The translations under genes were made by a program, and so were the position numbers. A stretch of DNA of 64,000 nt, taken from the NCBI RefSeq assembly GCF_029626105.1, contig NZ_JARUBH010000009.1, positions 6,324,001 to 6,388,000 of the forward strand, written 5' to 3'. The notes beneath the pieces were generated by a model. That model did not search any database and had not been told where the DNA came from. It saw only the letters and a program-made list of their open reading frames with translations. Shown piece after piece: positions 49,096 to 64,000 of the stretch. Position 1 is the stretch's first letter, and the number at the start of each line of letters is the position of its first letter. The DNA comes from Solwaraspora sp. WMMD792. Lineage in GTDB: Bacteria; Actinomycetota; Actinomycetes; Mycobacteriales; Micromonosporaceae.

Positions 49096-50202
49096 TCAAG
49101 CGGACTTGCGGTCAGTGGTCTTCTTCGCAGCGGTCTTGCGGGCACCGGACTTCTGCGTGCCGCTGGTCTGTCGCGTACCGCCGGTCTTCTGGCCGGCGGT
49201 TTTCGCGGCGGCCTTGCGGGCCTGGGCCTTCTCCGGTTGCGCCTTCTTGGCGGTGGTCTTCTTCTGGTCGGCGGCCGCTGCCTTCTTCGCCGGGGCCGTC
49301 TTCCTGGCCGGGGCCGCCTTCTTCGCCGCCGGAGCGGCGGCGGCCTTGGCCGACTTGGCCGAGGTGATCGGGGTCGGCTCGGCCGGCTCCCGGTCCTCGC
49401 CAGCAGCCTCGCCGGGGGCCTCTCCGCGCGCCACCCGGGCCCGCTCGACCGAGGCGCGCAGCGCGGCCATCAGGTCGACCGCGGCGGCCGGTGCCTCCTC
49501 TTCCTCCTCCGGGGCGACGATCTCCCGGCCCTCCACCTTGGCGTCGATGACCTCCTGCAGCGCCGCCCGGTAGTCGTCGGTGTACTCGTCCGGGGCGAAC
49601 TCGCCGGCCATCGAGTCGATCAGCGAGGCGGCCATCGCCAGCTCGGGCGGGCGGACCTGGATGTCGTCGTCGAGGAAACCGAACGACGCCTGCCGGATCT
49701 CGTCCGGCCAGAGCATCGTGTTGAGCACCAGCACGTTGTCACGTACCCGCAGGGTGGCGAGCTGTTCACGTTGCCGGATCGCGACCTTGACGATCGCCAC
49801 CCGGTCCGAGTCGGCCAGGGCGTCGCGCAGCAGCACGTACGGCTTCGTCGCGGTGCCTTCCGGCTCCAGGTAGTAGGCCTTGTTGTAGAGCATCGGGTCG
49901 ACCTGGTCGGCCGGCACGAACTCCAGCACGTCGATCGCCCGGGAGGTGCTCAACGGCAGGTCGGCGAAGTCCTCGTCGGTGAGGATCACCATCTCGCCGC
50001 CGCCGAGGTCGTAGCCCTTGGCGATGTCGTCGTAGCTGACCTCCTCGCCGTCGACCGAGCAGACCCGCTTGTACCGGATGCGACCGCCGTCCTCCCGGTG
50101 CACCTGGTGGAACCGGATGTCCTTCTCCTCGGTGGCGGAGTACAGGCGTACCCCGATCGACACGAGGCCGAACGACACCGCGCCTTTCCAGATCGCGCGC
50201 AT
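49096..50202 (-). CDS. ku: Ku protein for non-homologous end joining
   Basis: The product is 368 residues. The Ku core is at 1-255: AIWKGAVSFGLVSIGVRLYSATE, IRYKRVCSVDGEEV, VILTDEDFADLPL and LVLNTMLWPDEIR. It forms a homodimeric ring on DNA ends and recruits the LigD-type enzymes. The C-terminal 110 residues are Lys/Ala-rich (AAKKAAPARK units), a DNA-binding extension seen in some actinobacterial Ku. ATG 50202 is used because AAGGGAT is 7 nt upstream; earlier in-frame codons add a nonconserved segment. Divergent from the ligase and polymerase genes. Confidence 0.95.
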   Translation of the reverse strand: MRAIWKGAVSFGLVSIGVRLYSATEEKDIRFHQVHREDGGRIRYKRVCSVDGEEVSYDDIAKGYDLGGGEMVILTDEDFADLPLSTSRAIDVLEFVPADQVDPMLYNKAYYLEPEGTATKPYVLLRDALADSDRVAIVKVAIRQREQLATLRVRDNVLVLNTMLWPDEIRQASFGFLDDDIQVRPPELAMAASLIDSMAGEFAPDEYTDDYRAALQEVIDAKVEGREIVAPEEEEEAPAAAVDLMAALRASVERARVARGEAPGEAAGEDREPAEPTPITSAKSAKAAAAPAAKKAAPARKTAPAKKAAAADQKKTTAKKAQPEKAQARKAAAKTAGQKTGGTRQTSGTQKSGARKTAAKKTTDRKSA

Positions 50203-50337
50203 GGCTGATCCCTTCGCCACCACCGGCGGCCGCCGACCTGTCCCGCCCTTCCCCAAGGTCAAGATCGCCAGGTCGGCCCGGTGTTGATCCAGGATCGCAT
50301 CCGACAGAACTCAGCGCGACCACTTCGTTGCTGGTTT

Positions 50338-50343
50338 TACAGT
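50338..50343 (+). promoter_or_regulatory. -10 box of a leaderless promoter (TACAGT)
   Basis: TACAGT is followed by 6 nt then ATG 50350; no SD is present. It drives the ligase-polymerase pair, divergent from ku. Confidence 0.6.
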
Positions 50344-50349
50344 GGCAGG

Positions 50350-51321
50350 ATGCCGGGTGGACCGCTGCGGCCGATGCTCGCGACGACCGGGGAGCTGCCC
50401 ACAGGCCCCGGCTGGTGGTACGAGTTCAAATGGGACGGCGTGCGCGCTCTGGCGGATATCTCCGGTGGTGGGCAGCGGCTGTACGCCCGGTCCGGTGCCG
50501 AGATCACCATCGCCTACCCGGAGCTGTCCGGGCTGCCCCGCGCCCTGGACGACGCCCTGCTCGACGGGGAGATGGTGCTGCTCGACGCCGCCGGCCGACC
50601 GTCGTTCACCCTGCTCGCCGAGCGGATGCACGTGCGGGATCCGGCAAGGGCGGCCCGGCTGGCCGCCGGTGCGCCGGCCACGTACATGATCTTCGACCTG
50701 CTGCGGCTGCGCGGCGCGGACCTGACCGGCTGGCCGTACCGGGACCGGCGGCACGCGCTGGAAGCCCTCGGGCTGGCCGGGCCGGCGTGGGCGGTGCCGC
50801 CCAGCTTCACCGACGGGCCGGCCACCCGGGCCGCCGCCGCCGAACACGGGCTGGAGGGCGTGGTTGCCAAGCGCCGCGACGCGATCTACCGGCCGGGTGC
50901 CCGCAGCCCCGACTGGGTCAAGGTCAAGATCGAGCTGACCCGGGACTTCGTCGTCGGTGGCTGGCGTCCCGGGGTGCGTCGGCTCGGCGGCCTGCTGGTC
51001 GGCGTACCGGTGCGGGACGCGACCGGCGCGGCGACCGGCGCGCTGCGGTTCACCGGCCGGGTCGGCGGCGGGATCGGGTCGGCGGCCGAGCGGTCCCTGC
51101 TGGCCGCGTTGGAGCCGCTGCGTGCCGAGTCGACGCCGTTCGACACGCCGCTGCCCCGGGAGGACGCCCGCGGCGCGAACTGGGTACGCCCAGAGGTGGT
51201 GATCGAAGTACGGTACGGCCAGCAGACCCCGGACGGGCGGCTGCGGTTCCCCCGGTTCCTGCGGATCCGCCCGGACGTGCCGGCCACCGACGTCACCGAG
51301 GAGGATGCCGATGCGGGCTGA
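50350..51321 (+). CDS. ATP-dependent DNA ligase (LigD ligase-domain type)
   Basis: The product is 323 residues. Adenylation motif WYEFKWDGVRA (nucleophile Lys near 27) starts motif I; motif III ATYMIFDLLRL, motif IV EGVVAKRRDAIYRPG and motif V DWVKVKI follow. The OB-fold with GLLVGVP and FTGRVGGGI completes the enzyme. The ligase domain of LigD is here a separate gene, not fused to the polymerase. Leaderless start at ATG 50350. The stop overlaps the polymerase start region by 11 nt. Confidence 0.93.
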   Translation: MPGGPLRPMLATTGELPTGPGWWYEFKWDGVRALADISGGGQRLYARSGAEITIAYPELSGLPRALDDALLDGEMVLLDAAGRPSFTLLAERMHVRDPARAARLAAGAPATYMIFDLLRLRGADLTGWPYRDRRHALEALGLAGPAWAVPPSFTDGPATRAAAAEHGLEGVVAKRRDAIYRPGARSPDWVKVKIELTRDFVVGGWRPGVRRLGGLLVGVPVRDATGAATGALRFTGRVGGGIGSAAERSLLAALEPLRAESTPFDTPLPREDARGANWVRPEVVIEVRYGQQTPDGRLRFPRFLRIRPDVPATDVTEEDADAG

Positions 51322-52264
51322 CCGCGGTCTCGGCGCGGGCAAGCGCCGGATCCGGGTGGACGTCGCCGGCCGGTCGCTGGAGTTGTCCAACCTGGACAAG
51401 GTGCTGTACCCGGCGGCCGGGTTCACCAAGGGCGAGGTGATCGACTACTACACCCGGGTCTCCGGTGCGCTGCTGCCGCACCTCGCCGACCGGGCGCTCA
51501 CCCGGATCCGCTACCCGAATGGCGTCGACGGCCAGTTCTTCTTCGAGAAGAACGCCCCGGCGAGCACCCCGGACTGGGTGCGTACCGAACGGCTGCCCAC
51601 GCCCGGGTCGTCACGGGGCCGCGACGAGCTCGACTTCGTGATCGCCGACGACCTGCCCACCCTGGTCTGGCTGGCCAACCTGGCCGCGCTGGAGCTGCAC
51701 ACCCCGCAGTGGCGGGTCGGCGCCGACCCCGACCTGCTGGTCGTCGACCTCGACCCGGGGGCACCGGCCGGGATCGAGGAGTGCTGCGCGGTCGCGGTGC
51801 TGATCCGCGACCGGTTCGCCGACGACGGCATCGCCTGCTTCCCGAAGACCTCCGGCCGCAAGGGCATGCAGCTCGGCGCGCCGGTGTCGGCCGGGCAGCC
51901 GGCCGACGTCGTCTCCGGCTACGTGAAGCGAGTCGCCGAGGAGCTGGAACGCCGCTCACCGAAGACCATCACGTCGAAGATGGCCAAGCGGCTGCGCCCC
52001 GGCCGGGTCTTCATCGACTGGAGTCAGAACAACGCGGCGAAGACGACGGTGGCGCCGTACTCGCTGCGGGCCGGCCCGGTGCCGGCCGCCTCCGCGCCGC
52101 TGACCTGGCCGGAGGTGGAGGCCGCGGCGGCCGGCGAGCCGGGCGTCGTCCGCCAGTTCACCGCCGCCGAGGTGCTGGACCGCCTGGACGAGTACGGCGA
52201 CCTGCTCGCCGACCTGCTGACCGTCGGGCCGCCGGTCCCGGACCGCCGACAAGGGTCAGGGTAG
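51311..52264 (+). CDS. LigD-type primase-polymerase domain protein
   Basis: The product is 317 residues. It matches the AEP-type polymerase domain of LigD that fills and templates DNA ends: LSNLDKVLYP near residue 27, ALTRIRYPNGVDGQFFFEKNAP (in parts), metal-binding LLVVDLDPG near 139, FPKTSGRKGMQL near 175 and VFIDWSQNN near 232. ATG 51311 has GGAGG 6 nt upstream; ATG 51305 would overlap the SD. It overlaps the ligase gene by 11 nt and the convergent helicase gene by 9 nt. Probable partner of Ku and the ligase. Confidence 0.93.
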   Translation: MRADRGLGAGKRRIRVDVAGRSLELSNLDKVLYPAAGFTKGEVIDYYTRVSGALLPHLADRALTRIRYPNGVDGQFFFEKNAPASTPDWVRTERLPTPGSSRGRDELDFVIADDLPTLVWLANLAALELHTPQWRVGADPDLLVVDLDPGAPAGIEECCAVAVLIRDRFADDGIACFPKTSGRKGMQLGAPVSAGQPADVVSGYVKRVAEELERRSPKTITSKMAKRLRPGRVFIDWSQNNAAKTTVAPYSLRAGPVPAASAPLTWPEVEAAAAGEPGVVRQFTAAEVLDRLDEYGDLLADLLTVGPPVPDRRQGSG

Positions 52265-53926
52265 GGCGGGGCCGAGGACGTCGTCGGCGTCGACGATCGT
52301 GTACGCGTACCCCTGCTCGGCGAGGAACCGCTGCCGGTGCGCGGCGTACTCGGTGTCGATGGTGTCCCGGGAGACCACGGTGTAGAAGTGCGCCTGCCGG
52401 CCGTCGGCCTTGGGCCGCAGCACCCGGCCGAGCCGCTGCGCCTCCTCCTGCCGGGAGCCGAACGTGCCGGAGACCTGGATCGCCACCGCCGCCTCCGGTA
52501 GGTCGATGGAGAAGTTCCCGACCTTGGAGATGATCAGCGTGGGGATCTCACCGTTGCGGAACGCGTCGAACAGCCGTTCCCGCTCCTTGTTGGTGGTGGA
52601 GCCCTGCACGATCGGCGCGTCCAGGAATTCACCGAGCTGGTGCAGCTGGTCGATGTACGCCCCGATGACCAGCACCTGCTCGCCGCGGTGCCGGTCGACC
52701 AGCGCCTTGACCACCGGCAGTTTGGTACGCGCGGTGGCCGCCGCCCGGTACCGCTCCTCGGTCTCGGTGACCGCGTACCCCATCCGTTCCGCGTCGGTCA
52801 GGGTGACCCGGACCTCGACGCATTCGGCCGGGGCGATCCAGCCCTGCGCCTCGATGTCCTTCCACGGCGCGTCGTAGCGTTTCGGCCCGATCAGCGAGAA
52901 GACGTCGCCTTCCCGGCCGTCCTCGCGGACCAGGGTGGCGGTCAGCCCGAGTCGGCGGCGGGCCTGCAGGTCGGCGGTGAACCGGAAGATCGGCGCCGGC
53001 AGCAGATGCACCTCGTCGTAGATCACCAGGCCCCAGTCGCGGGCGTTGAACAGGTCGAGGTGGGTGAAGGCGCCCTTGCGGCGCGAGGTCAGCACCTGGT
53101 ACGTGGCGATGGTGACCGGGCGGATCTCCTTGCGCTCGCCGGAGTACTCGCCGATCTCGTCGGCGGTGAGCGAGGTGCGGGCGACCAGCTCCCGCTTCCA
53201 CTGCCGGCCGGCGACCGTGTTGGTGACGAGGATCAGGGTGGTCGCCTTGGCCTCGGCCATCGCCGCCGCGCCGACCAGCGTCTTGCCGGCGCCGCAGGGC
53301 AGCACCACCACTCCGGAGCCGCCGGCCCAGAACTGCTCGACCGCCTCCTGCTGGTAGGACCGCAGCGACCAGCCGGGCTGCCCGTCGCCGCCGGCGGTGT
53401 CCAGCTCGATCGGGTGCGCCTCGCCGTCGACGTAGCCGGCCAGGTCCTCGGCCGGCCAGCCCAGCTTGAGCAGGCCCTGCTTGAGCCGGCCCCGTTCGGA
53501 CGGGTGCACCGCCACCGTGTCGTCGTCGATCTTGTCGCCGAACATGCCGGCGAGCTTCTTGCTCTTGGTCACCTCGGTCAGCACGGCCCGGTCGGTGGTC
53601 CGCAGCACCAGCCCGTACGCGGGGTCGTTGGCCAGCTGCAGCCGGCCGTACCGGTCCATGGTGTCGGCGACGTCGACCAGCAGCGCGTGCGGCACCGGGT
53701 AGCGGGAGAACTTCAGCAGCGCGTCGACGACGCTCTCGGCGTCGTGCCCGGCGGCGCGGGCGTTCCACAGGCCGAGCGGGGTGAGCCGGTACGTGTGCAC
53801 GTGCTCGGGTGAGCGCTCCAGCTCGGCGAACGGGGCGATCGCCATCCGGCACGCGGTGGCGTCCGGGTGGTCGATCTCCAGCAGCAAGGTCTTGTCCGAC
53901 TGGACGATCAGCGGTCCGTTGTTCAC
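52256..53926 (-). CDS. XPB-like DNA repair helicase
   Basis: The product is 556 residues, an SF2 helicase of the bacterial XPB/ERCC3 group. An N-terminal specific domain (1-190) precedes the helicase core: Walker A LPCGAGKTLVGAAAM near 220, Walker B YDEVHLLPA near 307, LGLTATLVREDG (motif III) and the C-terminal lobe VLVIGAYIDQL, IQVSGTFGSRQEEAQRLGRVLRP (in parts SGTFGSRQEEAQRLGR). GTG 53926 is favoured because GGGGGAT lies 8 nt before it. Next to the end-joining genes, but functional linkage is inferred only. Confidence 0.93.
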   Translation of the reverse strand: MNNGPLIVQSDKTLLLEIDHPDATACRMAIAPFAELERSPEHVHTYRLTPLGLWNARAAGHDAESVVDALLKFSRYPVPHALLVDVADTMDRYGRLQLANDPAYGLVLRTTDRAVLTEVTKSKKLAGMFGDKIDDDTVAVHPSERGRLKQGLLKLGWPAEDLAGYVDGEAHPIELDTAGGDGQPGWSLRSYQQEAVEQFWAGGSGVVVLPCGAGKTLVGAAAMAEAKATTLILVTNTVAGRQWKRELVARTSLTADEIGEYSGERKEIRPVTIATYQVLTSRRKGAFTHLDLFNARDWGLVIYDEVHLLPAPIFRFTADLQARRRLGLTATLVREDGREGDVFSLIGPKRYDAPWKDIEAQGWIAPAECVEVRVTLTDAERMGYAVTETEERYRAAATARTKLPVVKALVDRHRGEQVLVIGAYIDQLHQLGEFLDAPIVQGSTTNKERERLFDAFRNGEIPTLIISKVGNFSIDLPEAAVAIQVSGTFGSRQEEAQRLGRVLRPKADGRQAHFYTVVSRDTIDTEYAAHRQRFLAEQGYAYTIVDADDVLGPALP

Positions 53927-54256
53927 TGTCGGTATCCCCCTTCTGGCCGACCCACCAGTCTCGCACGCGACCGCCCGACACTGGGCGGTTCCGGTGACCG
54001 ACGCCACTGTCGGAGTGACGATCGTTGCGTACCTGGTGAATATCGCAACCTCAGCGGCCGCTGCGGCGTCTTACCTCACGACGGCTGTCCTGGTCAGGAC
54101 ATGACCTGGAGGTACGCCAGGGCAGCGTCACACTGGCCGGTGCCGACGGACGCGTTCGATCCGCACCGTGACCCGTCCGGGCCGGAGAGGCAGCCCGGGG
54201 AGCGGCGACGCGGGCGGAGTAACGGGGGCGGGCGGTCCACACCCGTGCGACGGCCA
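53927..54256. other. Gap between the helicase start and the GH32 terminator
   Basis: No gene is supported. A 36-codon frame opening at GTG 53995 encodes a hydrophobic Ala-rich peptide but lacks an SD. No distinct promoter for the helicase was seen. Confidence 0.45.
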
Positions 54257-54311: not shown

Positions 54312-55253
54312 TCAGCGAGCGGGGGTGAGCCCGACGCCGGGGGTGTACCGCACCGGGACCGGGTCGATGATCTCGCCGACGAACCGGCCGTCCAGGTGGT
54401 CCAGGAAGCCGATCAGCTGCCAGCCGCCCTGGTCGGTGTCGGGTACGAGGCGCGGTGCGTACAGGCCGGGGTGGGTGAACGGCTGGGCGGCGGCGACGTC
54501 CCACGGGCCGGTGGTGGCGGTGCCGGGCACCACCCAGATCTGGTCGGTGGTCGCGCCCCGGGCCGGCGAGACGGCGTTGTTGGTGCAGAACAGCAACAAC
54601 GGCTGTCCGTCGATCACCACCACCTGCGGGACCTCCAGGTGCCCGAAGCCTGCGGGTACGGACAGCGGCGGCCGGACCCGCCAGGTGGTCAGGTCGTCCG
54701 AGGTGGCGTGCCCGATCACGCCCCGGGTGTCGGCCGGGCCGGTGGCGGACCGGGCGGTGATCAGCATGTGCCAACCGGCGCCGGCCGGGTCCGGGAAGAC
54801 CCACGGGTCGCGCCACGCCTGTTCGTACCAGGCGTCCCGGTCGAGTAGCTCGTACCAGGTCGGGTCGGCCTCGACCAGCGGTTCGGTGCCGTGCCGGTGC
54901 CAGGTCATCAGGTCGTCGGAGACGGCCAGACCGATCCGCTGCACCAGTCCTTGCTCGGCCCGGCTGACTCCCGTGTAGAAGAGGTACCAGCGGCCGTCCG
55001 GACCCCGGACGGTGCTGCCGGTCCAGGTGGCGAGGTCGTCCCAGGCGGGTGCGTCCGCCGGGACCAGCGCGTCGGCGACCAGCCGCCAGTTGCGCAGGTC
55101 GGTGGAGACCGCGTGGCCGATGCTGGCGCGGTGGTGCCGCCGGTGCGGGTCGCCCAACGCCCGGGAGGCACGCAGGAAGAACACGTGCCAGCGGCCGCTG
55201 TCGTCCCGTGCGTACCAGCTGTCCCACACCCAGTGATCCGGTAGCCGAAGCAT
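54312..55253 (-). CDS. GH32/GH68-clan (beta-fructosidase-like) glycoside hydrolase
   Basis: The product is 313 residues, no signal peptide, so cytoplasmic. It has five-bladed propeller repeats: LPDHWVWDSWYARDD (WxxD-type nucleophile region), WTGSTVRGPDGRWYLFYTG, the RDP motif in AWRDPWVFPD near 155 and the acid/base region HLEVPQVV near 207. These are the three landmark sites of GH32-type enzymes, although WDSW differs from the usual WMNDP. ATG 55253 lies 7 nt after TAGGTT (leaderless). A LacI-type operator half-overlaps the promoter. Substrate likely a fructoside or related sugar; a GH43/130-like role is possible. Confidence 0.78.
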   Translation of the reverse strand: MLRLPDHWVWDSWYARDDSGRWHVFFLRASRALGDPHRRHHRASIGHAVSTDLRNWRLVADALVPADAPAWDDLATWTGSTVRGPDGRWYLFYTGVSRAEQGLVQRIGLAVSDDLMTWHRHGTEPLVEADPTWYELLDRDAWYEQAWRDPWVFPDPAGAGWHMLITARSATGPADTRGVIGHATSDDLTTWRVRPPLSVPAGFGHLEVPQVVVIDGQPLLLFCTNNAVSPARGATTDQIWVVPGTATTGPWDVAAAQPFTHPGLYAPRLVPDTDQGGWQLIGFLDHLDGRFVGEIIDPVPVRYTPGVGLTPAR

Positions 55254-55260
55254 GCCGGGA

Positions 55261-55284
55261 AACCTAGCAGTGAATCGGTTTAGC
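55261..55284 (-). promoter_or_regulatory. GH32-like gene promoter with LacI operator
   Basis: On the minus strand TAGGTT (55261-55266) is the -10 box. Immediately upstream, 55269-55284 matches the LacI palindrome GCTAAATCAGTTTAGC at 11 of 16 positions, with an intact TTTAGC half-site. A repressor there would block RNA polymerase. Confidence 0.65.
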
Positions 55285-55347
55285 GCCAAGTTCGTGTCGT
55301 TACCCGCTGTGCTGGGACGGCCTCCAGAGGCCAGTTGGCGTCGCGGC

Positions 55348-56376
55348 TCAGGTGCTGTCCGCTGGCGCGGCGATCGACTTCCGGCGGTGCAGCGGCATCG
55401 GCACCATGCACCGCTCGGTGGACTCGCCGTCGAGCAGGATCTCCACCGCCCGCTGGCCCATCCGCTCGTGCGGCAGCGCCGCGGTGAACAGACCGGGCCG
55501 CAGCCAGGTGGCGATCGGGTCGTCGTCGAACGAGACGACCGAGATGTCGGTGGGCACGGTCAGCCCGGCGTCGGCGATCGCCTGGTACGCGCCGAAGGCG
55601 AGGCGGTCGTTCATGCAGATCACCGCGGTGGGTGGGACGGATCGGGCGAGCAGGGTGCGCATCGCGGTGTAGCCGTGCTCGGGCAGCCACTCCCGGCAGA
55701 ACGGCTCGGCGTACAGCGTGGCGTCGGCAGCCGACAGGGCGTGCCGGATGCCGAGCAGCCTGGCCTCGGCGGCCAGCGACACCTCCGGGTCGCGTTCCTT
55801 GAGGCGGTTGCGCCCGATCAGCGCGATCCGTTGCCGGTGGCCCTGCTTGAGCAGGGCCTCGGTGACCGCCCGACCGGCCAGTTCGTCGTCCGGCAGCACG
55901 CAGGGCAGGTTGTCCGGGCTGGTGGCGTTGAGCAGCACCACCGGGCCGCCCAGGATGGCCGGCGGCACGGTCAGCCGGCGGGTGGCCATCGCGGCGTAGA
56001 TCACCCCGTCGACCTGCCGGTCCAGCATGGCTTCGATCGCGTACCGCTCGAACTCGGCGTCGCCCTGCGTCTCGGTGATCAGCAGTACGTGGTCGCGCTC
56101 CCGGGCGGCGTCCAGTGCGCCCCGGATCAGCCCACCGGCAAAACGGGTAGTTGCCACGATGTCGGACACGAAGGCAATCGTGGCGGTTTTCCTGGTCCGC
56201 AGACTTCGTGCGGCGACGTTCGGGCGGTAGCCTAGTTCTTCGGCGGCGGCGAAGACCCGCTGGTGCGCCTCGACGGAGAGGCGCGTTCCCTCCCGCCCGT
56301 TCAGCACCATCGACGCGGCGGTCTTGGACAGGCCGGCCCGGCGGGCGACATCGGCCAAGGTGGCCCTGTTCCGCAC
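55348..56376 (-). CDS. LacI-family transcriptional regulator
   Basis: The product is 342 residues. The HTH (ATLADVARRAGLSKTAASMVLNG near residue 4, in parts VARRAGLSKTAASMVLNG) and hinge (GYRPNVAARSLRTRKT) precede a sugar-binding periplasmic-protein-like domain, ending VSFDDDPIATWLRPGLFTAALP. Its likely operator GCTAAATCAGTTTAGC fits LacI-type half-sites. GTG 56376 is favoured because GAGGA lies 6 nt upstream. It lies between the GH32-like gene and the ABC operon and probably represses both until the sugar is present. No clear operator was seen at its own promoter. Confidence 0.92.
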   Translation of the reverse strand: MRNRATLADVARRAGLSKTAASMVLNGREGTRLSVEAHQRVFAAAEELGYRPNVAARSLRTRKTATIAFVSDIVATTRFAGGLIRGALDAARERDHVLLITETQGDAEFERYAIEAMLDRQVDGVIYAAMATRRLTVPPAILGGPVVLLNATSPDNLPCVLPDDELAGRAVTEALLKQGHRQRIALIGRNRLKERDPEVSLAAEARLLGIRHALSAADATLYAEPFCREWLPEHGYTAMRTLLARSVPPTAVICMNDRLAFGAYQAIADAGLTVPTDISVVSFDDDPIATWLRPGLFTAALPHERMGQRAVEILLDGESTERCMVPMPLHRRKSIAAPADST

Positions 56377-56527
56377 TGTTGATCCTCTTGATGGGGGTTC
56401 ACTGTCCACAGCACTGCCTCCGCCGGTCATGCCCATGCTCCATCATCCGATGCCGCCCCTGGTCCGGGGCAGGCGGGTGACCCGCCACCTGTGAACGAGC
56501 CGTTTCCGGACCGTTGCCAACTGGTCC
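56377..56527. other. Divergent gap between the LacI gene and the ABC operon promoter
   Basis: No gene and no further LacI-type site found in this stretch; it carries the lacI promoter on the minus strand, not clearly recognisable. Confidence 0.4.
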
Positions 56528-56575
56528 TTGACAGCAACGAGCTTTTCGCAGCATGCTCTGCTAAATCAGTTTAGC
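56528..56575 (+). promoter_or_regulatory. ABC operon promoter with LacI palindrome
   Basis: TTGACA (56528-56533), 18-nt spacer, CATGCT (56552-56557), then GCTAAATCAGTTTAGC (56560-56575) at the expected start site. The same arrangement occurs at 61058-61105. Confidence 0.85.
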
Positions 56576-56705
56576 TAGACGATCCGCCAGGCCACTCATG
56601 GCGGAACCCCAGACGACGGTGCACCGGAGCCGTCGCAGGCGAAACATCACGAACCGCTACGCCGCGTGGGATCGGCGGGGCGGCGACAACTCAAGGAGTC
56701 CCGAG

Positions 56706-58067
56706 ATGCGTAGATATGCGCGGAAGCTCCACGCCGGTCGCCCGGCGCTGGTGCTGGCGCCGCTGATGGCGGCCACCCTTGCCATCACCGCCTGCTCGGC
56801 CCCGGGTGCCGACCCGGTCACCGAGGACGACGGTGACACCGAGGTCAGCACCGAACTGGGCAGCGACCCGATCACCCTGGAGATGTACGCCGAGACCGGC
56901 TTCCCGCTGGCCAAGGCGCTCGCCGACGAGTTCAGCAACCAGTACCCGAACGTCACGTTCAACGTGCGTGAGGACCAGTTCACCGTCATCGTCGAGAACG
57001 CACCCCGGGTGCTGGCCGGCGACAACGCGCCGGACATCATCCGGCTGCCCACCATGATCGACCTGGTCTCCGACGGCCTGCTGAAGAACCTCGACCCCTA
57101 CTTCGACGCGTACGGCTGGGACAGCTTCCCCGCCTCGCAGCTGGAGCAGCTGCGGATCACCGACGACGGCACCCGGGGCAGCGGCTCGCTCTACGGCATG
57201 GGCCTCGGCTACAGCGTCACCGGCGTGTTCTACAACAAGGAACTCGCCGAGCAGGTCGGGATGACCGAGCCGCCGGCGACCATCGCCGAGTTCGAGGAGC
57301 TGCTCGCCGCGGCCAAGGACGCTGGCATCCAGCCGATCATGCAGTTCAACCAGGACACCGCCGGGATCAACTTCCCGCACCAGGCGCTGCAGAACCAGTA
57401 CGGCGACCCGCAGGAGATCGCCGACTGGATCTTCCAGAAGGAAGGCGCCACCTTCGACACGCCGGCCGCGCTCAAGGCCACCCAGACCATCGAGAAGTGG
57501 GCCCAGGCCGGCTACTTCCCGGCGGACGCCAACGCCATCGACTACACCGCGATGATGGGCCAGTTCCAGGAGGGCAACGGCCTGTTCATGTTCAACGGTG
57601 ACTGGGAGTCGGGCAACCTGGACAGCAACATGCCGGGCGAGGTCGGCTTCTTCCTGTTCCCGGGGGAGACCGCGGACGCCTCGCACGTGGCGATGTCCGC
57701 CCCGAACACCTTCGGGGTCGGCGCCAAGGCGAAGAACCCCGACGCCGCCGCCTTCTTCCTGAACTGGGTGCACACCAACGAGAAGGCCCGGGAGATCTCG
57801 GTGCAGGTCGGTGGCTCCAGCCCGGGCGGCCCGGCCGACCTCGAAGTGCCGACCGCCGCCGAGGGCACCGTACTCGCCCAGACCCTCGCCGCCAGCGGGC
57901 AGCTGGCCGAGGAGAACGGCGCGGTGGACTTCACCGCCAACGCGACCGGCTCGATCTTCGCCTCGGCGATCACCCCGGAGCTGCAGAAGCTGATCGTCGG
58001 CGAGCAGACCCCGGAAGGGTACGTGCAGGCGGTCCAGGCCCAGTACGAAGAGGAACTGTCTCGATGA
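56706..58067 (+). CDS. Sugar ABC transporter substrate-binding lipoprotein
   Basis: The product is 453 residues. Lipobox ITAC gives lipidated Cys30. The mature protein is of the family 1 extracellular binding type (MalE-like): LEMYAETGFPLAKALADEF, FNVREDQFTVIVENAPRVLAG, YGMGLGYSVTGVFYNKELAEQ and MFNGDWESGNLDSNMPGE. AAGGAG lies 7 nt before ATG 56706. Coupled to the permease (ATGA). It brings a sugar to the two membrane permeases. No ATPase gene follows, so a shared MsiK-type ATPase from elsewhere is presumed, which is the rule in actinomycetes. Confidence 0.93.
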   Translation: MRRYARKLHAGRPALVLAPLMAATLAITACSAPGADPVTEDDGDTEVSTELGSDPITLEMYAETGFPLAKALADEFSNQYPNVTFNVREDQFTVIVENAPRVLAGDNAPDIIRLPTMIDLVSDGLLKNLDPYFDAYGWDSFPASQLEQLRITDDGTRGSGSLYGMGLGYSVTGVFYNKELAEQVGMTEPPATIAEFEELLAAAKDAGIQPIMQFNQDTAGINFPHQALQNQYGDPQEIADWIFQKEGATFDTPAALKATQTIEKWAQAGYFPADANAIDYTAMMGQFQEGNGLFMFNGDWESGNLDSNMPGEVGFFLFPGETADASHVAMSAPNTFGVGAKAKNPDAAAFFLNWVHTNEKAREISVQVGGSSPGGPADLEVPTAAEGTVLAQTLAASGQLAEENGAVDFTANATGSIFASAITPELQKLIVGEQTPEGYVQAVQAQYEEELSR

Positions 58068-58990
58068 CGCTGCCCGCTACCGGCAGCACGTCACCCGCGC
58101 GGGCCCACCGGAACCGGTGGGCCCGTTCGGGCCGCTGGTCCGGCTGGTTGTGGGTGGTGCCGGCCCTGGTGATGTACGTGGTCTTCGTGGTCCGCCCGTT
58201 GACGCTCACCTTCCAGTACTCGCTCTACGACTGGAACGGCATCGGCGTCGCGCGGTGGGCCGGGCTGGACAACTACCTCACCGTGTTCACCGACTCCGAC
58301 CTGCTGAAGATCATCGGGAACGCGTTCGTGCTGATCATCTTCTTCAGTTTCATCCCGGTCGGGGTCGGGTTGCTGGTGGCCAGCCTGGTCCGGCGGATGG
58401 CCACCGGGCTGTTCGGCACCGCCGTACGGACGATTCTGTTTCTCCCGCAGGTCATCCCGCTGGTCGCCGCCGGCATCGCGTGGAGCTGGCTGCTCTCGTC
58501 GTCCGGCGTGGTCAACCAGGCGCTGCGCGCCGTCGGCCTGGGCGGGCTGGCCCGGCCGTGGCTCGGCGACTTCGACACCGCCCTGCCGTCGGTCGGCATG
58601 ATCGGCGCCTGGGTCTCCCTCGGCCTGTGCACCATCCTGCTGATCACCGGGATCGGCAAGATCGACCCGAGCCTGTACGAGGCGGCCCGGATGGACGGCG
58701 CCGGCCCGGTCCGGGAGTTCTTCGCGGTCACCCTGCCCGGCCTGCGCCGCGAAATCGGCGTCTGCCTGACGGTGACCGTCATCGCGGCGCTGGCCAGCTT
58801 CGACATCGTCTACATCTCCACCAGTGGCGGACCGGGTTACCAGACCACCGTGCCGGGCCTGGAGATCTACCGGCTGGCGTTCGCCCAGCGGCAGGTCGGC
58901 CTCGCCTCCGCGTTGGCCATCGTGCTGATGGCGCTGGTGCTGCTCTGCGTACTGCCGATCCAGCGTCTGACCCGGGAGGAGAAGGGATGA
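58064..58990 (+). CDS. Sugar ABC transporter permease (MalF-like)
   Basis: The product is 308 residues with six membrane helices. The EAA loop is at about 205 (YEAARMDGAGPVREFFAVTLPGL, in parts EAARMDGAGPVREFF). Family: binding-protein-dependent sugar permeases. Overlaps the preceding and next genes by 4 nt. It pairs with the MalG-like permease at 58987. Confidence 0.94.
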   Translation: MTLPATGSTSPARAHRNRWARSGRWSGWLWVVPALVMYVVFVVRPLTLTFQYSLYDWNGIGVARWAGLDNYLTVFTDSDLLKIIGNAFVLIIFFSFIPVGVGLLVASLVRRMATGLFGTAVRTILFLPQVIPLVAAGIAWSWLLSSSGVVNQALRAVGLGGLARPWLGDFDTALPSVGMIGAWVSLGLCTILLITGIGKIDPSLYEAARMDGAGPVREFFAVTLPGLRREIGVCLTVTVIAALASFDIVYISTSGGPGYQTTVPGLEIYRLAFAQRQVGLASALAIVLMALVLLCVLPIQRLTREEKG

Positions 58991-59811
58991 GGCTCAGCCG
59001 CAGCGAGCAGGTGACCGGGCGGGTCTTCCTGATCCTGCTGGTCCTGGTCACCCTGCTGCCGTTCGTGAGCATGCTGTCGGCGGCGTTGCAACCCCGCGGG
59101 ACGGTGCCGACCGGGTTGACCTGGCCGTCCGACCCGCAGTGGGGCAACTTCGCCGACGCCTTCACCGTGGCCAACATGGGCGCGCTGCTCAAGTCCAGCG
59201 GCCTGATCGTCGCCGGGGTGGTACCGGTCGCCGTGGTGATCGCCACCATGGCCGGCTTCGGCCTCGGCCACCTGAAGATCCCCGGCGCCCGGTTCGTCTT
59301 CGTCTTCTTCCTGCTCGGCCTGACCATGCCGTTCGAGGCGGTGATCACCCCGCTGTACTACCAGATCCAGGACTTCGGGCTGCTGAACACCCGGTGGGCG
59401 ATCATCCTGCCGCTGATCGGACTCTTCATGCCGTTCGGCGTGTTCTGGATGCGTACCCACTTCATCAACGTGCCGGCCGAGTTGTCCGAGGCCGCCCGGG
59501 TCGACGGCAGCAGCACCTGGCAGCTGTTCTGGCGGATCCACCTGCCACTGGCCCGGCCGGCGATCGCCTCGCTGACCATCCTGCTGTTCCTCTGGACGTG
59601 GAACCAGTTCCTGCTGGCCATCGTGCTCGTCGACGACGGCACCAAGCGGACCATGGCCGGCGCGCTCGGGGCCTTCCAGGGGCAGTGGGGCACCGACCAG
59701 GTGCTGCTGTGCGCCGGGTCGCTGCTGATCCTCACCCCGACGCTGATCGTCTTCCTGATCTTCCAGCGTCAGTTCATCAAGGCCCTGCTGCAGGGGTCGG
59801 TGAAGGGGTGA
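58987..59811 (+). CDS. Sugar ABC transporter permease (MalG-like)
   Basis: The product is 274 residues with six membrane helices. The EAA loop is near 165 (SEAARVDGSSTWQLFWRIHLPL, shown as EAARVDGSSTWQLFW). MalG-type C-terminal signature LWTWNQFLLAIVLVDD is present. AAGGG precedes ATG 58987, which overlaps the MalF-like stop. The stop overlaps the serine hydrolase start (GTGA). Confidence 0.94.
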   Translation: MRLSRSEQVTGRVFLILLVLVTLLPFVSMLSAALQPRGTVPTGLTWPSDPQWGNFADAFTVANMGALLKSSGLIVAGVVPVAVVIATMAGFGLGHLKIPGARFVFVFFLLGLTMPFEAVITPLYYQIQDFGLLNTRWAIILPLIGLFMPFGVFWMRTHFINVPAELSEAARVDGSSTWQLFWRIHLPLARPAIASLTILLFLWTWNQFLLAIVLVDDGTKRTMAGALGAFQGQWGTDQVLLCAGSLLILTPTLIVFLIFQRQFIKALLQGSVKG

Positions 59812-60965
59812 CCGTGTCCAACGATCCGATCGTCCACGGTGACGTCGCCGACGGCTTCGGCCGGGTCGCCGACGTGTTCCGGGACAACTTCGCCACCCGG
59901 GGCGAGGTCGGCGCCGGCCTGGCCGTCTACGTCGACGGACGCCCGGTCGTCGACCTGTACGGCGGGCTCGCCGATCCGCGTACCGGACGGGTCTGGCAGC
60001 AGGACACCCCGGCGGTGGTGTTCTCCTGCACCAAGGGCATCCTGGCGGTCTGCGCCTACCTGCTGGTGCAGTCCGGCCGGCTGGACCTGGCCGCCCCGGT
60101 CACCCGCTACTGGCCCGGGTTCGGTCGCAACGGCAAGGCCGACATCGTGGTCCGCGACCTGCTCACCCACCGGGCCGGCCTGCCGGCGCTGGACCGTGAC
60201 CTGACCCGCGAGCAGGTGCTGGCCTGGGATCCGGTGATCGCCGCGATCGAGGAGCAGACCCCACTGTGGCAGCCGGGTACGGCGTACACGTACCACGCGT
60301 TGACCTACGGCTGGCTGGTCGGCGAGGTGATCCGGCGGGTCACCGGCGTACCGGTGGGGGAGTTCTTCCGCGACACCCTGGCCGGGCCGCTCGGCCTGCG
60401 GACCTGGATCGGGCTGCCGGCCGCCGAGCGGGACAGCGTGGCCTGGACGCTGGCCCCGCCGGACAACCCGGTCAGCTACCCGGACCGGGTCAGCGAGCGG
60501 TCGCTGACCATGGGTGGCGCGTTCGACTTCCCGGCGGACGCCGCCGGCCTGGTCAGCTTCAACGACCCGGCCGTCCAGGCGGCCGAGGTTCCCGGAGCCG
60601 GCGGGGTGAGCTCCGCCGCCGGCCTGGCCCGGCTGTACGCCGCCTGCGTCGCGCCGGTGGCCGGACCCCCGCTGCTGACCACCGCCTCGGTGGACGACGC
60701 GGTGGTGGTGCGCTCGCAGGGCCGGCAGCGGTACGGCGGCCCGGACGCCGGGCAGCGCTGGGGGACCGGCTTCCTGCTCGGGTCGCCCCGAATCCGCCCG
60801 ATGCTCGGCGACCGCAGCTTCGGTCACGACGGGGCGGGCGGGCATCTGGGCTTCGCCGACGACCGCTACCGGGTCGGGTTCGGGTACGTGCTGAACCAGA
60901 TGGGGCCGGCGGACGACGACCGGGCCAACCGGCTGACCGCCGCGTTGCGGGACTGCCTGGACTGA
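59808..60965 (+). CDS. Class C beta-lactamase-like serine hydrolase
   Basis: The product is 385 residues, no signal peptide, so cytoplasmic. The class C fold motifs are SCTKG (SxxK, residues about 71-74), the YHA/LTYGW stretch near 165 supplying the Tyr, and HDGAGG near 343 in the KTG position. The family includes esterases that act on acylated or lactone substrates. Location in the sugar operon suggests it deacylates an imported compound. GTG 59808 overlaps the permease stop. Nothing follows within 90 nt but the next promoter. Confidence 0.88.
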   Translation: MTVSNDPIVHGDVADGFGRVADVFRDNFATRGEVGAGLAVYVDGRPVVDLYGGLADPRTGRVWQQDTPAVVFSCTKGILAVCAYLLVQSGRLDLAAPVTRYWPGFGRNGKADIVVRDLLTHRAGLPALDRDLTREQVLAWDPVIAAIEEQTPLWQPGTAYTYHALTYGWLVGEVIRRVTGVPVGEFFRDTLAGPLGLRTWIGLPAAERDSVAWTLAPPDNPVSYPDRVSERSLTMGGAFDFPADAAGLVSFNDPAVQAAEVPGAGGVSSAAGLARLYAACVAPVAGPPLLTTASVDDAVVVRSQGRQRYGGPDAGQRWGTGFLLGSPRIRPMLGDRSFGHDGAGGHLGFADDRYRVGFGYVLNQMGPADDDRANRLTAALRDCLD

Positions 60966-61057
60966 GGCTCCGACCGGTCATTCCCGTCGGGCTCGGAGCG
61001 GGTATCCCCCGTCCCACCAGCAACAACTATATGTCCAGCCGATTTCTGGCACGTGTC

Positions 61058-61105
61058 TTGACATGGCCTGATCATCGCGAGCATGCTCAGCTAAATCAGT
61101 TTAGC
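61058..61105 (+). promoter_or_regulatory. Second promoter with the same LacI palindrome
   Basis: TTGACA (61058-61063), 18-nt spacer, CATGCT (61082-61087), GCTAAATCAGTTTAGC (61090-61105). The element from GCATGCTC through the palindrome matches 56551-56575 except one base. Confidence 0.88.
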
Positions 61106-61203
61106 GTCGATCTACTCGCCCAGCTTGACTGCCGGTCCCCCGCTTGTGACCCCCACCCGCAGGCCTGGCTGGGCACACGCGCTCGCGCGGGAAGGAAGGA
61201 CGC

Positions 61204-62526
61204 ATGACCCTCCGCAAGAAGGCGGTTGCCCTGCTCGCCGTAGCCGCGGTGCTGAGCACCGCCGGGGCGGCGAACGCTCAGGGTGGCAACGGCGGCGGCA
61301 TCACCACCGGCATCCAGAGCATCACCCCGATCACCGAGGTCTACACGTACGGCCAGCGGGTCTCCGCGGTGGCGGTCGAGTACGGCGAGATCGTCAACCC
61401 CGACTCGATCGACCCGAGCACCTACACCGTGTCGGACACCGTGTACAACTTCCGGTTCAACCCGATCGAGGACCTGACCAAGATGGCCGACCGGACCATC
61501 ACCAACGTCTACACCAACAGCCGGGCGCACACCCGGTTCGACCAGCGGTCGGTCACCGGACGCTACGTGATCATCGAACTCGACCCGGCCGACGTGGGCG
61601 GCTGGACCGTGATCGTCTCGAAGTGCCCGACCTTCCTGTGCACGGTCAAGGTCAACCCGGATCTGCCGACCACGCTGACCCAGCGCAAGCGGATCCACGC
61701 CAAGCCGGGCAACGGCAACGGTCTGGGGCCGGTGCTCGCACCGGGCACCCCGCACCGGGTCCGGGCGATGACCGAGGAGCCGGTGAACCTGCTGGTCGAC
61801 GAGTTCGCCTATGACTCGTACCTGAGCGGCGGCATGGTGCTGCCGTACCACTACCACCTGCCGAAGAACTACGACCCGGCCAAGCGGTATCCGCTGATGG
61901 TCGTGCTGCCCGGCCACGGGATGGGCTTCGACGGGGACAACACCGGGGTACAGATCGCGGCGGACATTCCCGCGGTGGCCTGGCTGGAGCGTAAGTGGAC
62001 CGGCAGCGACGAGGACGTGATCGTGCTCGCCCCGCAGAACCAGCGGGTCGGTGCGGCGGCCGAGGCCGCGCTGCTGATCAAGCTGATCGACCAGTTCGTC
62101 GACGAGTACAGCGTCGACCCCACCCGGATCTACACCACCACGGTCTCCTACGGATCACAGCTGGCCTGGGCGGCGTTCGAGCAGCGGCCGGATCTGTTCG
62201 CCGCCGGTCTGATCACCGGTGGGTTCCAGATCAACGAGGAGCAGGCCGCCGCGGTGGCCGAGGCGGAGATGCCGGTGTACGTCACCCACGGCGTCAACGA
62301 CCACCTGCTGAACATCTCGCTGGGACGCAACTCCCGCGACGCGCTGCAGGCGGCGCACGCGGCGCAGGGCAAGAGCGAGCAGGAGATCGCCGACCTGGTG
62401 CGCTACACCGAGTACGAGAACGACGCGTTCTCGCTGCCCGACTACCATGCCGCCTACGGTCCGACGTACGAGGACCGCAGCATGCTGAAGTGGCTGCTCA
62501 GCCAGCGCAACGACAGCGCCTCCTGA
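61204..62526 (+). CDS. Secreted alpha/beta-hydrolase (esterase-like)
   Basis: The product is 440 residues with a signal peptide (1-25, ANA cleavage). An N-terminal beta domain (about 40-185) precedes an alpha/beta hydrolase domain. The latter has the HGMGFDGDNTGV oxyanion region, the nucleophile elbow TTVSYGSQLAW (Ser in SYG; the first Gly of the usual GxSxG is Thr), a downstream Asp in VTHGVNDHLL and a possible His in LPDYHAAYGP. Related to PHB-depolymerase/CE1-type esterases. ATG 61204 has GGAAGGACGC upstream. Control by the LacI operator links it to the sugar module, perhaps releasing the sugar from an ester-linked polymer outside the cell. Confidence 0.82.
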   Translation: MTLRKKAVALLAVAAVLSTAGAANAQGGNGGGITTGIQSITPITEVYTYGQRVSAVAVEYGEIVNPDSIDPSTYTVSDTVYNFRFNPIEDLTKMADRTITNVYTNSRAHTRFDQRSVTGRYVIIELDPADVGGWTVIVSKCPTFLCTVKVNPDLPTTLTQRKRIHAKPGNGNGLGPVLAPGTPHRVRAMTEEPVNLLVDEFAYDSYLSGGMVLPYHYHLPKNYDPAKRYPLMVVLPGHGMGFDGDNTGVQIAADIPAVAWLERKWTGSDEDVIVLAPQNQRVGAAAEAALLIKLIDQFVDEYSVDPTRIYTTTVSYGSQLAWAAFEQRPDLFAAGLITGGFQINEEQAAAVAEAEMPVYVTHGVNDHLLNISLGRNSRDALQAAHAAQGKSEQEIADLVRYTEYENDAFSLPDYHAAYGPTYEDRSMLKWLLSQRNDSAS

Positions 62527-62583
62527 GCCGACGGACCCGGATCCAAGCAACCGGGTCCGGGTCAGCCTGACTACCGCCCGACC

Positions 62584-62625
62584 GTGAGCCCGTCGGAGGA
62601 TCGCCGGATCCTCCGACGGGCTCAC
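62584..62625 (+). terminator. Hairpin terminator after the secreted hydrolase
   Basis: GTGAGCCCGTCGGAGGATC (62584-62602) pairs perfectly with 62607-62625 around a GCCG loop, a 19-bp stem. No T tract. Confidence 0.9.
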
Positions 62626-62669
62626 GCGTGTCTCCGGTCGCCAGCCCTGGCTCCGCGGTCCGGCAACCT

Positions 62670-63169: not shown

Positions 63170-64000
63170 GTGCGACAAACAGCTGTCAAACGAGCAGCGC
63201 TGCTCGCGGCGGCCGGTGGCCTGGTCGCCTCGGCGGCGACCGTGGTCCTGCCCGCAACCGCTGCCGCAGCAGCCGGGTGCTCAGTGGACTACGCCGTGTC
63301 GTCCCAGTGGCCCGGCGGATTCGGCGCCAACGTCACCGTCACCAATCTCGGTGATCCGATCGACGGCTGGACCCTCACCTGGTCGTACACCGCTGGACAA
63401 CAGGTCACGCAGGCGTGGAACACGTCGTTGACCCAGAGTGGGGCACAGGTGACCGCGCGCAATGTCAGCTGGAACAGTGCGATCGCGACGAACGGCACCG
63501 CCTCGTTCGGGTTCAACGGCTCCTGGAACAACAGCAGCAACCCGACGCCCGGCTCGTTCACCCTCAACGGAACGGTCTGCACCGGAGGCGTGACCGACCC
63601 GACCACCGCTCCGCCCACCACCGTCCCGCCCACGACGGCTCCGCCGACCACCGCCCCGCCCACCACGGCTCCGCCGACGACACCGCCGCCGTCGGGGGAT
63701 TACACGAATCCGGTGGTGTGGCAGGACTTCGCGGATGTGGAGGTGATCCGGGTCGATGACACGTACTACATGACGGCGTCGACGATGCATTATTCGCCGG
63801 GTGCGCCGATTCTGCGGTCGTACGATCTGGTGAACTGGGAGTTCGCGGGGCATGCGGTGCCGAGGTTGGAGTTCGGGTCGAAGTATGACCTGTCGGGGGC
63901 GCAGCGGGGGTATGTGCGGGGGATCTGGGCGTCGACGTTGAACTACCGGCGGAGTAACGGGACGTACTACTGGGCGGGTTGTATCGATTTCAGTCAGACG
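63170..64000 (+). CDS. Secreted CBM2-GH43 glycosidase, N-terminal part
   Basis: The first 277 codons are present; the gene runs off the window. A signal peptide (about 1-35) is followed by a CBM2 cellulose-binding module (about 37-140, CSVDYAVSSQWPGGFGANVTVTN and SWNNSSNPTPGSFTLNGTVC in parts). A Thr/Pro linker (APPTT units, 145-172) follows, then a GH43 propeller start (NPVVWQDFADVEVIRVDDTYYMTAS in parts; ILRSYDLVNWEFAGH; the second metal/acid site is not yet reached). GH43 includes xylosidases and arabinofuranosidases; the first Asp in WQDFADVEV is the expected catalytic base region. GTG 63170 has AAAGGAA 7 nt upstream. Codon usage changes sharply at the GH43 boundary. Confidence 0.9.
   Translation, partial: MRQTAVKRAALLAAAGGLVASAATVVLPATAAAAAGCSVDYAVSSQWPGGFGANVTVTNLGDPIDGWTLTWSYTAGQQVTQAWNTSLTQSGAQVTARNVSWNSAIATNGTASFGFNGSWNNSSNPTPGSFTLNGTVCTGGVTDPTTAPPTTVPPTTAPPTTAPPTTAPPTTPPPSGDYTNPVVWQDFADVEVIRVDDTYYMTASTMHYSPGAPILRSYDLVNWEFAGHAVPRLEFGSKYDLSGAQRGYVRGIWASTLNYRRSNGTYYWAGCIDFSQT

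Follow-up and report, generated by a model that had tools for sequence, protein, structure and literature searches.

What does a LacI-type regulator control when its gene stands beside those of a fructosidase-like enzyme, a sugar importer and two esterases, and which sugar would such a set of genes serve? The question is raised by a stretch of 64,000 nucleotides from Solwaraspora sp. WMMD792 (contig NZ_JARUBH010000009.1, positions 6,324,001 to 6,388,000; hereafter the window), in which these genes occupy positions 54312 to 62526. A first-pass annotation, made from the letters of the window, had tied the regulator, a GH32-like enzyme, an ATP-binding cassette (ABC) importer, a cytoplasmic class C-type serine hydrolase and a secreted esterase into one regulon, and had proposed that together they break down an acylated sugar. 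The claim of a single regulon is strongly supported by a comparison of 250 genomes, in which the operator site, the secreted esterase and the glycosidase follow the regulator, and we consider it very probable from these sequence comparisons that LacI, the glycosidase, the importer, the serine hydrolase and the secreted esterase form one regulon. The elements of the module are listed below, where SBP stands for the sugar-binding protein and Est for the secreted esterase.

54312..55253, minus strand: GH32/GH68-like glycosidase with a single propeller domain (Pfam, AlphaFold2 (AF2) model, PDB fold matches)
55269..55284, minus strand: third, weaker operator, GCTAAACCGATTCACT, with 3 arm mismatches, preceding the GH32-like gene
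55348..56436, minus strand: LacI-family regulator (PF00356, PF13377, PF00532); the true start may lie further in
56528..56557, plus strand: importer promoter (TTGACA, 18 nt, CATGCT), kept in the SBP promoters of relatives
56560..56575, plus strand: operator 1, GCTAAATCAGTTTAGC (exact-site and shuffle searches, 250-genome scan)
56706..58067, plus strand: SBP, with a lipoprotein-like signal by eye (PF01547, 90.3 bits)
58064..58990, plus strand: ABC permease 1 (PF00528, 48.6 bits)
58987..59811, plus strand: ABC permease 2 (PF00528, 66.6 bits)
59814..60965, plus strand: serine hydrolase, apparently of family VIII carboxylesterase type, with a GTG start (PF00144, 233.5 bits)
61058..61087, plus strand: Est promoter (TTGACA, 18 nt, CATGCT), kept in the Est promoters of relatives
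61090..61105, plus strand: operator 2, GCTAAATCAGTTTAGC, identical to operator 1; the site is kept before Est orthologues
61204..62526, plus strand: Est, with EstA Ig-like and alpha/beta-hydrolase domains (PF18435, 96.8 bits)
62581..62629, plus strand: strong hairpin behind Est, a possible transcript end (RNA fold -46.8 kcal/mol, z -9.4)

The importer and Est promoters share, as had been noted, TTGACA (at 56528 and 61058), CATGCT (at 56552 and 61082), a spacer of 18 nt and an identical 16-mer, which starts 2 nt behind the -10 element in both cases. The description of this 16-mer as a 16-bp palindrome is correct for its two 6-bp arms and incorrect for the TCAG centre. Across the 7.4-Mb genome, GCTAAAN4TTTAGC matches operators 1 and 2 only, and a reversed control pattern has zero occurrences; when one mismatch is allowed, 1 extra place is found for the pattern and 1 for the control. 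Two matches to the full 16-mer with up to 3 mismatches were seen in none of 100 shuffles of the window, and two matches to GCTAAAN4TTTAGC with up to 2 mismatches in 1 of 100, the real sites being exact. A chance origin of the site is ruled out by these shuffles, by its uniqueness in the genome and by the 250-genome scan. When up to 2 arm mismatches are allowed, the window yields no site beyond operators 1 and 2; weaker sites would escape such a search. The weaker site reported in the promoter of the GH32-like gene, GCTAAACCGATTCACT, is corroborated by related sites before the same gene in other genomes (see below). It ends 15 bp upstream of the ATG at 55253 (minus strand), which is probably the start of the glycosidase gene rather than the TTG at 55289 given in the list of open reading frames (ORFs), and appears to sit between the putative hexamers TTGGCG (-35) and TAGGTT (-10). 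A generic sigma-70 scan detected neither of the two window promoters because CATGCT is a poor match to a -10 element, and these promoters are therefore supported by their conservation.

Regulon membership was assessed in a sample of 250 genomes of the family Micromonosporaceae, 50 of which contain an orthologue of the LacI regulator (LacI+) while 200 do not (LacI-). The exact-site scan covered all 250 genomes (a preceding scan was confined to 47 of the 73 genomes in which the glycosidase has a match), and the cross-tabulated sets and the coordinates were compiled by hand from separate searches. Matches to the glycosidase were found in 73 genomes, to the LacI orthologue in 50, to Est in 39 (35 at 63% identity or above) and to the exact site in 52. 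A scan of genomes for the gene set and the site had been suggested as a check, and its outcome agrees with the proposal: the exact site is present in 47/50 LacI+ and 5/200 LacI- genomes, Est (at least 63% identity) in 35/50 and 0/200, and the glycosidase (at least 70% identity) in 46/50 and 1/200, respectively. As the genomes are related, Fisher values overstate their independence. The reversed pattern occurs in 12 of the 250 genomes, all of them LacI-, which is a rate near that of the true pattern among LacI- genomes. The operator is an even palindrome which stands before several operons and tracks LacI, as is characteristic of a LacI regulon.

The five LacI- genomes with the site have other centres, namely CTTA (G142), TTTC (G017) and GCGC (three genomes of genus g39). 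In the latter (G039, G080 and G094), the perfect palindrome GCTAAAGCGCTTTAGC is present once per genome without this LacI, and is probably the operator of another regulator. Among the LacI+ genomes without the exact site, G101 carries GCTGAACTGATTTAGC, G105 has LacI and GATAAATCAGTTTAGC (importer, glycosidase and Est were not seen), and G210 has LacI and the serine hydrolase (glycosidase, importer and site were not seen). The cluster of G105 (L128), which belongs to the genus of the window, is a reduced one, with LacI (90% identity) as an open frame and a 1-mismatch operator, and without importer or glycosidase. In another genome of this genus (G060, L040), the binding protein and the first permease are missing and both operators are kept, and in G031 (L056) the importer is followed by a second copy of LacI (80% identity), while a truncated Est stands next to the glycosidase.

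The position of the site relative to the genes is also conserved. It lies 26-114 bp ahead of the start of the tblastn match in 34 of the 35 Est orthologues, the 35th (G200) being located behind the serine hydrolase inside the importer operon. In 14 of the 34, a distance of over 8 kb separates the two sites (at most 34 kb, in G107), and other genes stand between them in the loci viewed. Promoters were counted as distinct sequences, not as genomes, and L037 (nearly a duplicate of the window) and the second of the L051 sites were left out: TTGAC is found in 38/38 SBP and 27/27 Est promoters, CATGCT in 37 of the 38 SBP promoters, and [CG]ATGCT in 23 of the 27 Est promoters, the others comprising 3 close variants and 1 promoter without a placed -10. 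For the glycosidase, again counting distinct upstream sequences and leaving out L127 (which has no WDSW), a site with 0-3 mismatches is present at a nearly fixed distance in 40/40 clade-1 upstream regions, compared with 3 mismatches in 3/40 and 4-6 in the remaining regions for the reversed control. The window 16-mer GCTAAACCGATTCACT itself is found at the same position in 10 of 40 other glycosidase upstream regions. The serine hydrolase, without a signal peptide, is encoded at the locus in 34 of the 46 LacI+ genomes viewed. Two further sites, GCTAAATCGGTTTAGC (L116 at about 5793, G107 contig 44) and GCTAACCCGATTTAGC (G031; L056 at 621, L139 at 5621), stand ahead of putative hydrolases of other types. 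The one at the G107 contig 44 site has no Pfam match and the G031 site has 1 mismatch, and both are only suggestive as members of the regulon.

In G200, the second site precedes an unlinked CE1 (feruloyl-esterase-like) gene instead of Est. Orthologues of this gene were found in 28 of the 250 genomes, of which 26 are among the 50 LacI+ and 2 among the 200 LacI- genomes (Fisher 2.6e-19, for genomes which are not independent). In the 25 of 28 copies examined (G112, G167 and G190 were left out), GCTAA[AT]N4TTTAGC is present ahead of 21/21 unlinked copies from LacI+ genomes, 164-500 bp from where the 587-residue query begins and behind TTGACA and a CACACT-like hexamer, and in those 21 loci neither the gene itself nor the sequence downstream of it holds a site of this type. 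The site reads GCTAATTCGATTTAGC in 20 of the 21; read on the opposite strand, its right half gives the left half of the SBP site. The copies of G178 and G247 (both LacI-) and of G104, each beside an Est-like gene (52-55% identity), have no site, and neither does that of G055, where the gene is placed behind the permeases. The CE1 protein has a signal-peptide-like start and matches xylanase Z (presumably through the feruloyl esterase part of the latter) and feruloyl esterases in the PDB; it is of the same fold class as Est, with 25% identity over 198 residues. The genome of the window has neither a CE1 match nor a CE1-type site. Since both CE1 and Est track LacI, in addition to the family VIII enzyme, three esterase types follow the regulator, and the CE1 case indicates that unlinked partners can be found from the operator alone.

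Among the proteins of the window, LacI has both a helix-turn-helix (HTH) and a sugar-binding domain over cut-off (PF00356, 44.7 bits; PF13377, 92.3 bits). Of the 35 orthologues with a readable HTH, 30 share its stretch GLSKTAASMVLNGREGTRLS unchanged and the other 5 differ at a few positions; the remaining 15 of the 50 LacI proteins were shortened by the gene caller and are uninformative on the HTH. Judging by overlaps and short gaps, the genes of SBP, the two permeases and the serine hydrolase look like one operon. No ATPase gene for the importer is present among the ORFs of the cluster, and the structure prediction for SBP (pLDDT, a per-residue confidence score, of 64) was too poor for a structure search. 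Class C beta-lactamases are recognized by the motifs SxxK, YxN and KTG. The serine hydrolase has the first (Ser71-x-x-Lys74) and a motif search found neither YxN nor KTG, no signal peptide is seen by eye, and its closest relatives in the PDB, 8j5v, 7y3z, 5gmx and 3zyt, are carboxylesterases. The label of class C type is accordingly not retained, as the enzyme appears to be a carboxylesterase of family VIII and not a beta-lactamase. Est, which has a signal peptide by eye, matches the EstA of Thermotoga maritima (PDB 3doh, 1.4e-32), and its Ser315, Asp366 and His415 are invariant in an alignment of 17 sequences and are presumably catalytic. With an N-terminal Ig-like domain and an alpha/beta hydrolase domain carrying this Ser-Asp-His set, Est would be an EstA-type enzyme.

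The hairpin at 62581-62629 is long and near-perfect, has no T tract and was missed by the terminator scan; it is possibly a terminator of non-canonical type. Further downstream (63170-64000, plus strand), a CBM2-GH43 gene with a signal-peptide-like start runs off the end of the window. It was considered as a regulon member and rejected, since a search allowing up to 2 arm mismatches found no site in front of it. On the other side of the module, a helicase-like gene (52256-53932) adjoins Ku-like and LigD-like ligase and polymerase genes (49096-52264), which we take to resemble a non-homologous end-joining set.

The glycosidase (about 313 residues in one domain, by eye without a signal peptide) is over the Pfam cut-off for both GH32N (57.9 bits) and GH68 (31.6 bits, cut-off 27), and reaches no NCBIfam cut-off. 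GH43 was discarded as its identity, being below the Pfam cut-off. Enzymes of clan GH-J have a five-bladed propeller, an Asp nucleophile, the Asp of an RDP motif and a Glu acid/base. The AF2 model of the glycosidase has a pLDDT of 90.9, and all of the matches listed (50 of 772 in the PDB) are GH68 or GH32 by name, at 14-23% identity; D11 (WDxW), D149 (RDPW) and E207 (EVPQ) are invariant in an alignment of 30 sequences. Predicted fold and putative catalytic residues would thus place it in clan GH-J, and the best PDB match of its alignment profile is a remote one to levansucrase 7bj4 (2.7e-13). Among 78 such proteins from 80 named loci, 66 fit all four motif patterns and 12 depart from at least one. 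GH32 enzymes combine the propeller with a C-terminal sandwich and carry a WMNDPNG motif, whereas the window enzyme has a WDSW motif and one domain, although it passes the GH32N cut-off. GH68 enzymes are marked by WD(S/T)W, RDP and E-x-E-R-P, and here the GH68 cut-off is passed, but EVPQ stands in place of ERP. The enzyme resembles GH68 levansucrases and inulosucrases and GH32 fructosidases in the propeller fold, WDxW, WTG(S/C), RDP and the acid/base Glu, and differs from them in having no C-terminal sandwich and EVPQ instead of ERP or EC. That it acts on fructosyl bonds seems a fairly good assumption from sequence and model. The genome of the window has one other GH32N match, a weak one (23.2 bits) at G000:C9:1236496-1236924 (L229), inside a 1655-residue open frame.

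Relatives of the glycosidase across actinobacteria mostly have LacI and an importer as neighbours and fall into three contexts: a window-type module (Micromonosporaceae, and also Streptomyces, Actinomadura and Amycolatopsis), a module with GH172 (8 of the 80 named loci, 7 of them with PfkB), and importer and glycosidase alone (e.g. Cellulomonas, Actinotalea, Tessaracoccus). Within 8 kb of the glycosidase in the 80 named loci, which are short, PfkB is found in 17 and Est in 5, and another count gives 17/80 loci with an importer of the third type, LacI and glycosidase and without GH172, kinase, serine hydrolase or Est. A second glycosidase clade stands beside GH172 and mostly PfkB, LacI and an importer (L066-L071, L201, L204-L207, L210, L211 and L215), the GH172 assignment being by Pfam for L066 and by eye or BLAST for the others. 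The GH172 (DUF2961) of this sister clade has difructose dianhydride I hydrolase as its best PDB match (6e-83), and the four PfkB kinases tested are fructokinase-like, yet below the NCBIfam cut-off; the loci of the second clade are candidate difructose dianhydride loci. The exact operator is present in 6 of 10 genomes from other families, compared with 1/10 for the control; of these 6 genomes, 5 have it before the binding-protein gene. In many genomes Est or the serine hydrolase was not found, and ester cleavage is therefore not needed for the core, which looks like an older sugar module to which ester functions were added later.

The combination of secreted esterase(s), an importer, a cytoplasmic esterase and a fructosidase-like glycosidase suggests an esterified, fructose-containing substrate. 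We regard it as reasonably likely that this LacI regulon serves to take up and hydrolyse an acylated sugar which probably contains fructose, and the balance of the evidence leans to the same degree towards an esterified substrate. Without the sugar, LacI would occupy GCTAAAN4TTTAGC-type sites, which at the importer and esterase genes lie just behind the -10 and at the glycosidase gene between the putative -35 and -10; given this placement, the simplest interpretation is repression that an inducer lifts, in which LacI would leave its operators when the inducer is present. Outside the cell, the EstA-type esterase (and in many relatives also CE1) would trim acyl groups, and the importer would take up the sugar. 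In the cytoplasm, the family VIII esterase would strip the remaining acyl groups and the GH68/GH32-like enzyme would split the glycosidic bond, probably freeing fructose. Repression, the inducer and the order of steps are what we infer from this arrangement, while the operator, its link to LacI and the gene set are supported by comparison. The acylated-fructoside pathway that had been sketched from the window alone thus finds partial backing, as the fold and residues of the glycosidase, the GH172 and fructokinase-like neighbours and CE1 speak for it, while Est and the serine hydrolase were often not found.

Several observations weigh against an acylated substrate for the whole set. Est was not found in any of 10 chosen glycosidase-bearing genomes of other families, in a search without a positive control genome. 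Within the Micromonosporaceae, no Est with at least 63% identity is present in 15 of the 50 LacI+ genomes; among those, G104 and G146 have a 53-55% relative elsewhere without a site, and G031 a fragment. The serine hydrolase was not seen at the locus in 12 of 46 LacI+ genomes, a count taken from a gene table around the locus which covers 46 of the 50, with no whole-genome search made and with one of the 12 (G038) running off its contig. The weaker profile matches of the glycosidase include beta-mannoside phosphorylases and a beta-galactosidase. Lastly, the CE1 site is 1 bp off the arms used elsewhere, and both the pattern and the upstream stretch (from 420 to 1,800 bases) were extended once an initial inspection, with 420 bases and the narrower pattern, had given a site with 0-1 mismatch in 18/21.

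Alternatively, the core of LacI, importer and glycosidase may serve a plain small fructoside, for instance a fructo-oligosaccharide, with the imported sugar free of esters and the esterases as side members which open plant material or strip protecting groups. The module outside the family runs without a detected Est, the 17 loci reduced to LacI, importer and glycosidase fit this picture, and the neighbouring glycosidase clade works with GH172, as in the difructose dianhydride operon. However, two secreted esterase types follow LacI, and a serine hydrolase without a signal peptide in 34 of the 46 loci fits the import of esters, so a plain fructoside is in our view possible but rather unlikely. 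A feruloylated arabinoxylan fragment, with the glycosidase acting as a furanosidase on arabinose or a comparable pentose, is brought to mind by CE1, which resembles feruloyl esterases and matches xylanase Z best, and by the GH43 or CBM2 genes near the module in the window and in some relatives. This is improbable, as profile and fold of the glycosidase fit GH68/GH32 best, with GH43 below the Pfam cut-off, and as no site was found ahead of the window GH43 gene at up to 2 arm mismatches, though a weaker one would escape.

The common -35, spacer length, -10 and operator of the two window promoters could also have arisen by a recent duplication of one promoter, the genes being expressed independently. 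We hold this for highly improbable, given that the exact site is kept in nearly all LacI+ genomes although the spacers differ between promoters, that it stays with Est at distances of up to 34 kb, and that the glycosidase and CE1 promoters carry variants of it. A regulon for an acylated, probably fructose-containing sugar hence remains the preferred reading.

Kashima et al. link a Bifidobacterium dentium operon of LacI, GH32, DUF2961 and ABC genes to difructose dianhydride I (PMC8605356). The window is similar to this operon, as described there, in having LacI, a sugar ABC importer and putative intracellular fructoside-active enzymes at one locus, and the sister glycosidase clade has the B. 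dentium layout including GH172. Unlike that operon, with which gene content was compared, the window cluster is without GH172 (no DUF2961 was found among eight window proteins scanned against Pfam) and has predicted intra- and extracellular esterases. LacI operators are mostly even palindromes, and a centre without CG is found in a minority, according to PMC4052901; compared with these, CG is absent from the centre of window operators 1 and 2, whereas the glycosidase and CE1 sites have it. The likeness extends to the FruR/BfrR and ScrR-type regulons covered there, which serve fructose, fructo-oligosaccharides and sucrose and in which even palindromes of at least 16 bp near the start codon control uptake and hydrolysis, and no word beginning with "esterase" is found in the main text of that paper. 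Nothing on this gene set is contained in the searched passages of PMC4746261, and no described bacterial regulon for esterified sugars turned up in full-text literature searches, which covered most papers by their listings. T. maritima EstA (3doh) and family VIII carboxylesterases (3zyt, 8j5v) are homologues of Est and of the serine hydrolase, respectively; the two window proteins differ from them in being placed under a sugar-type LacI regulator.

The regulon is therefore ordinary in kind, being a LacI sugar regulon, and unusual in content, with three esterase types under one sugar repressor. Plants produce many esterified sugars. It may be suggested, tentatively and with considerable doubt, that in the Micromonosporaceae this dispersed regulon serves the catabolism of acylated, possibly hydroxycinnamoyl, plant esters of sucrose or fructo-oligosaccharides, and that its glycosidase represents a new GH-J family. 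The glycosidase marks a compact group of GH68/GH32-like enzymes which is widespread in actinobacteria, and the locus supplies a testable gene set together with an exact operator.

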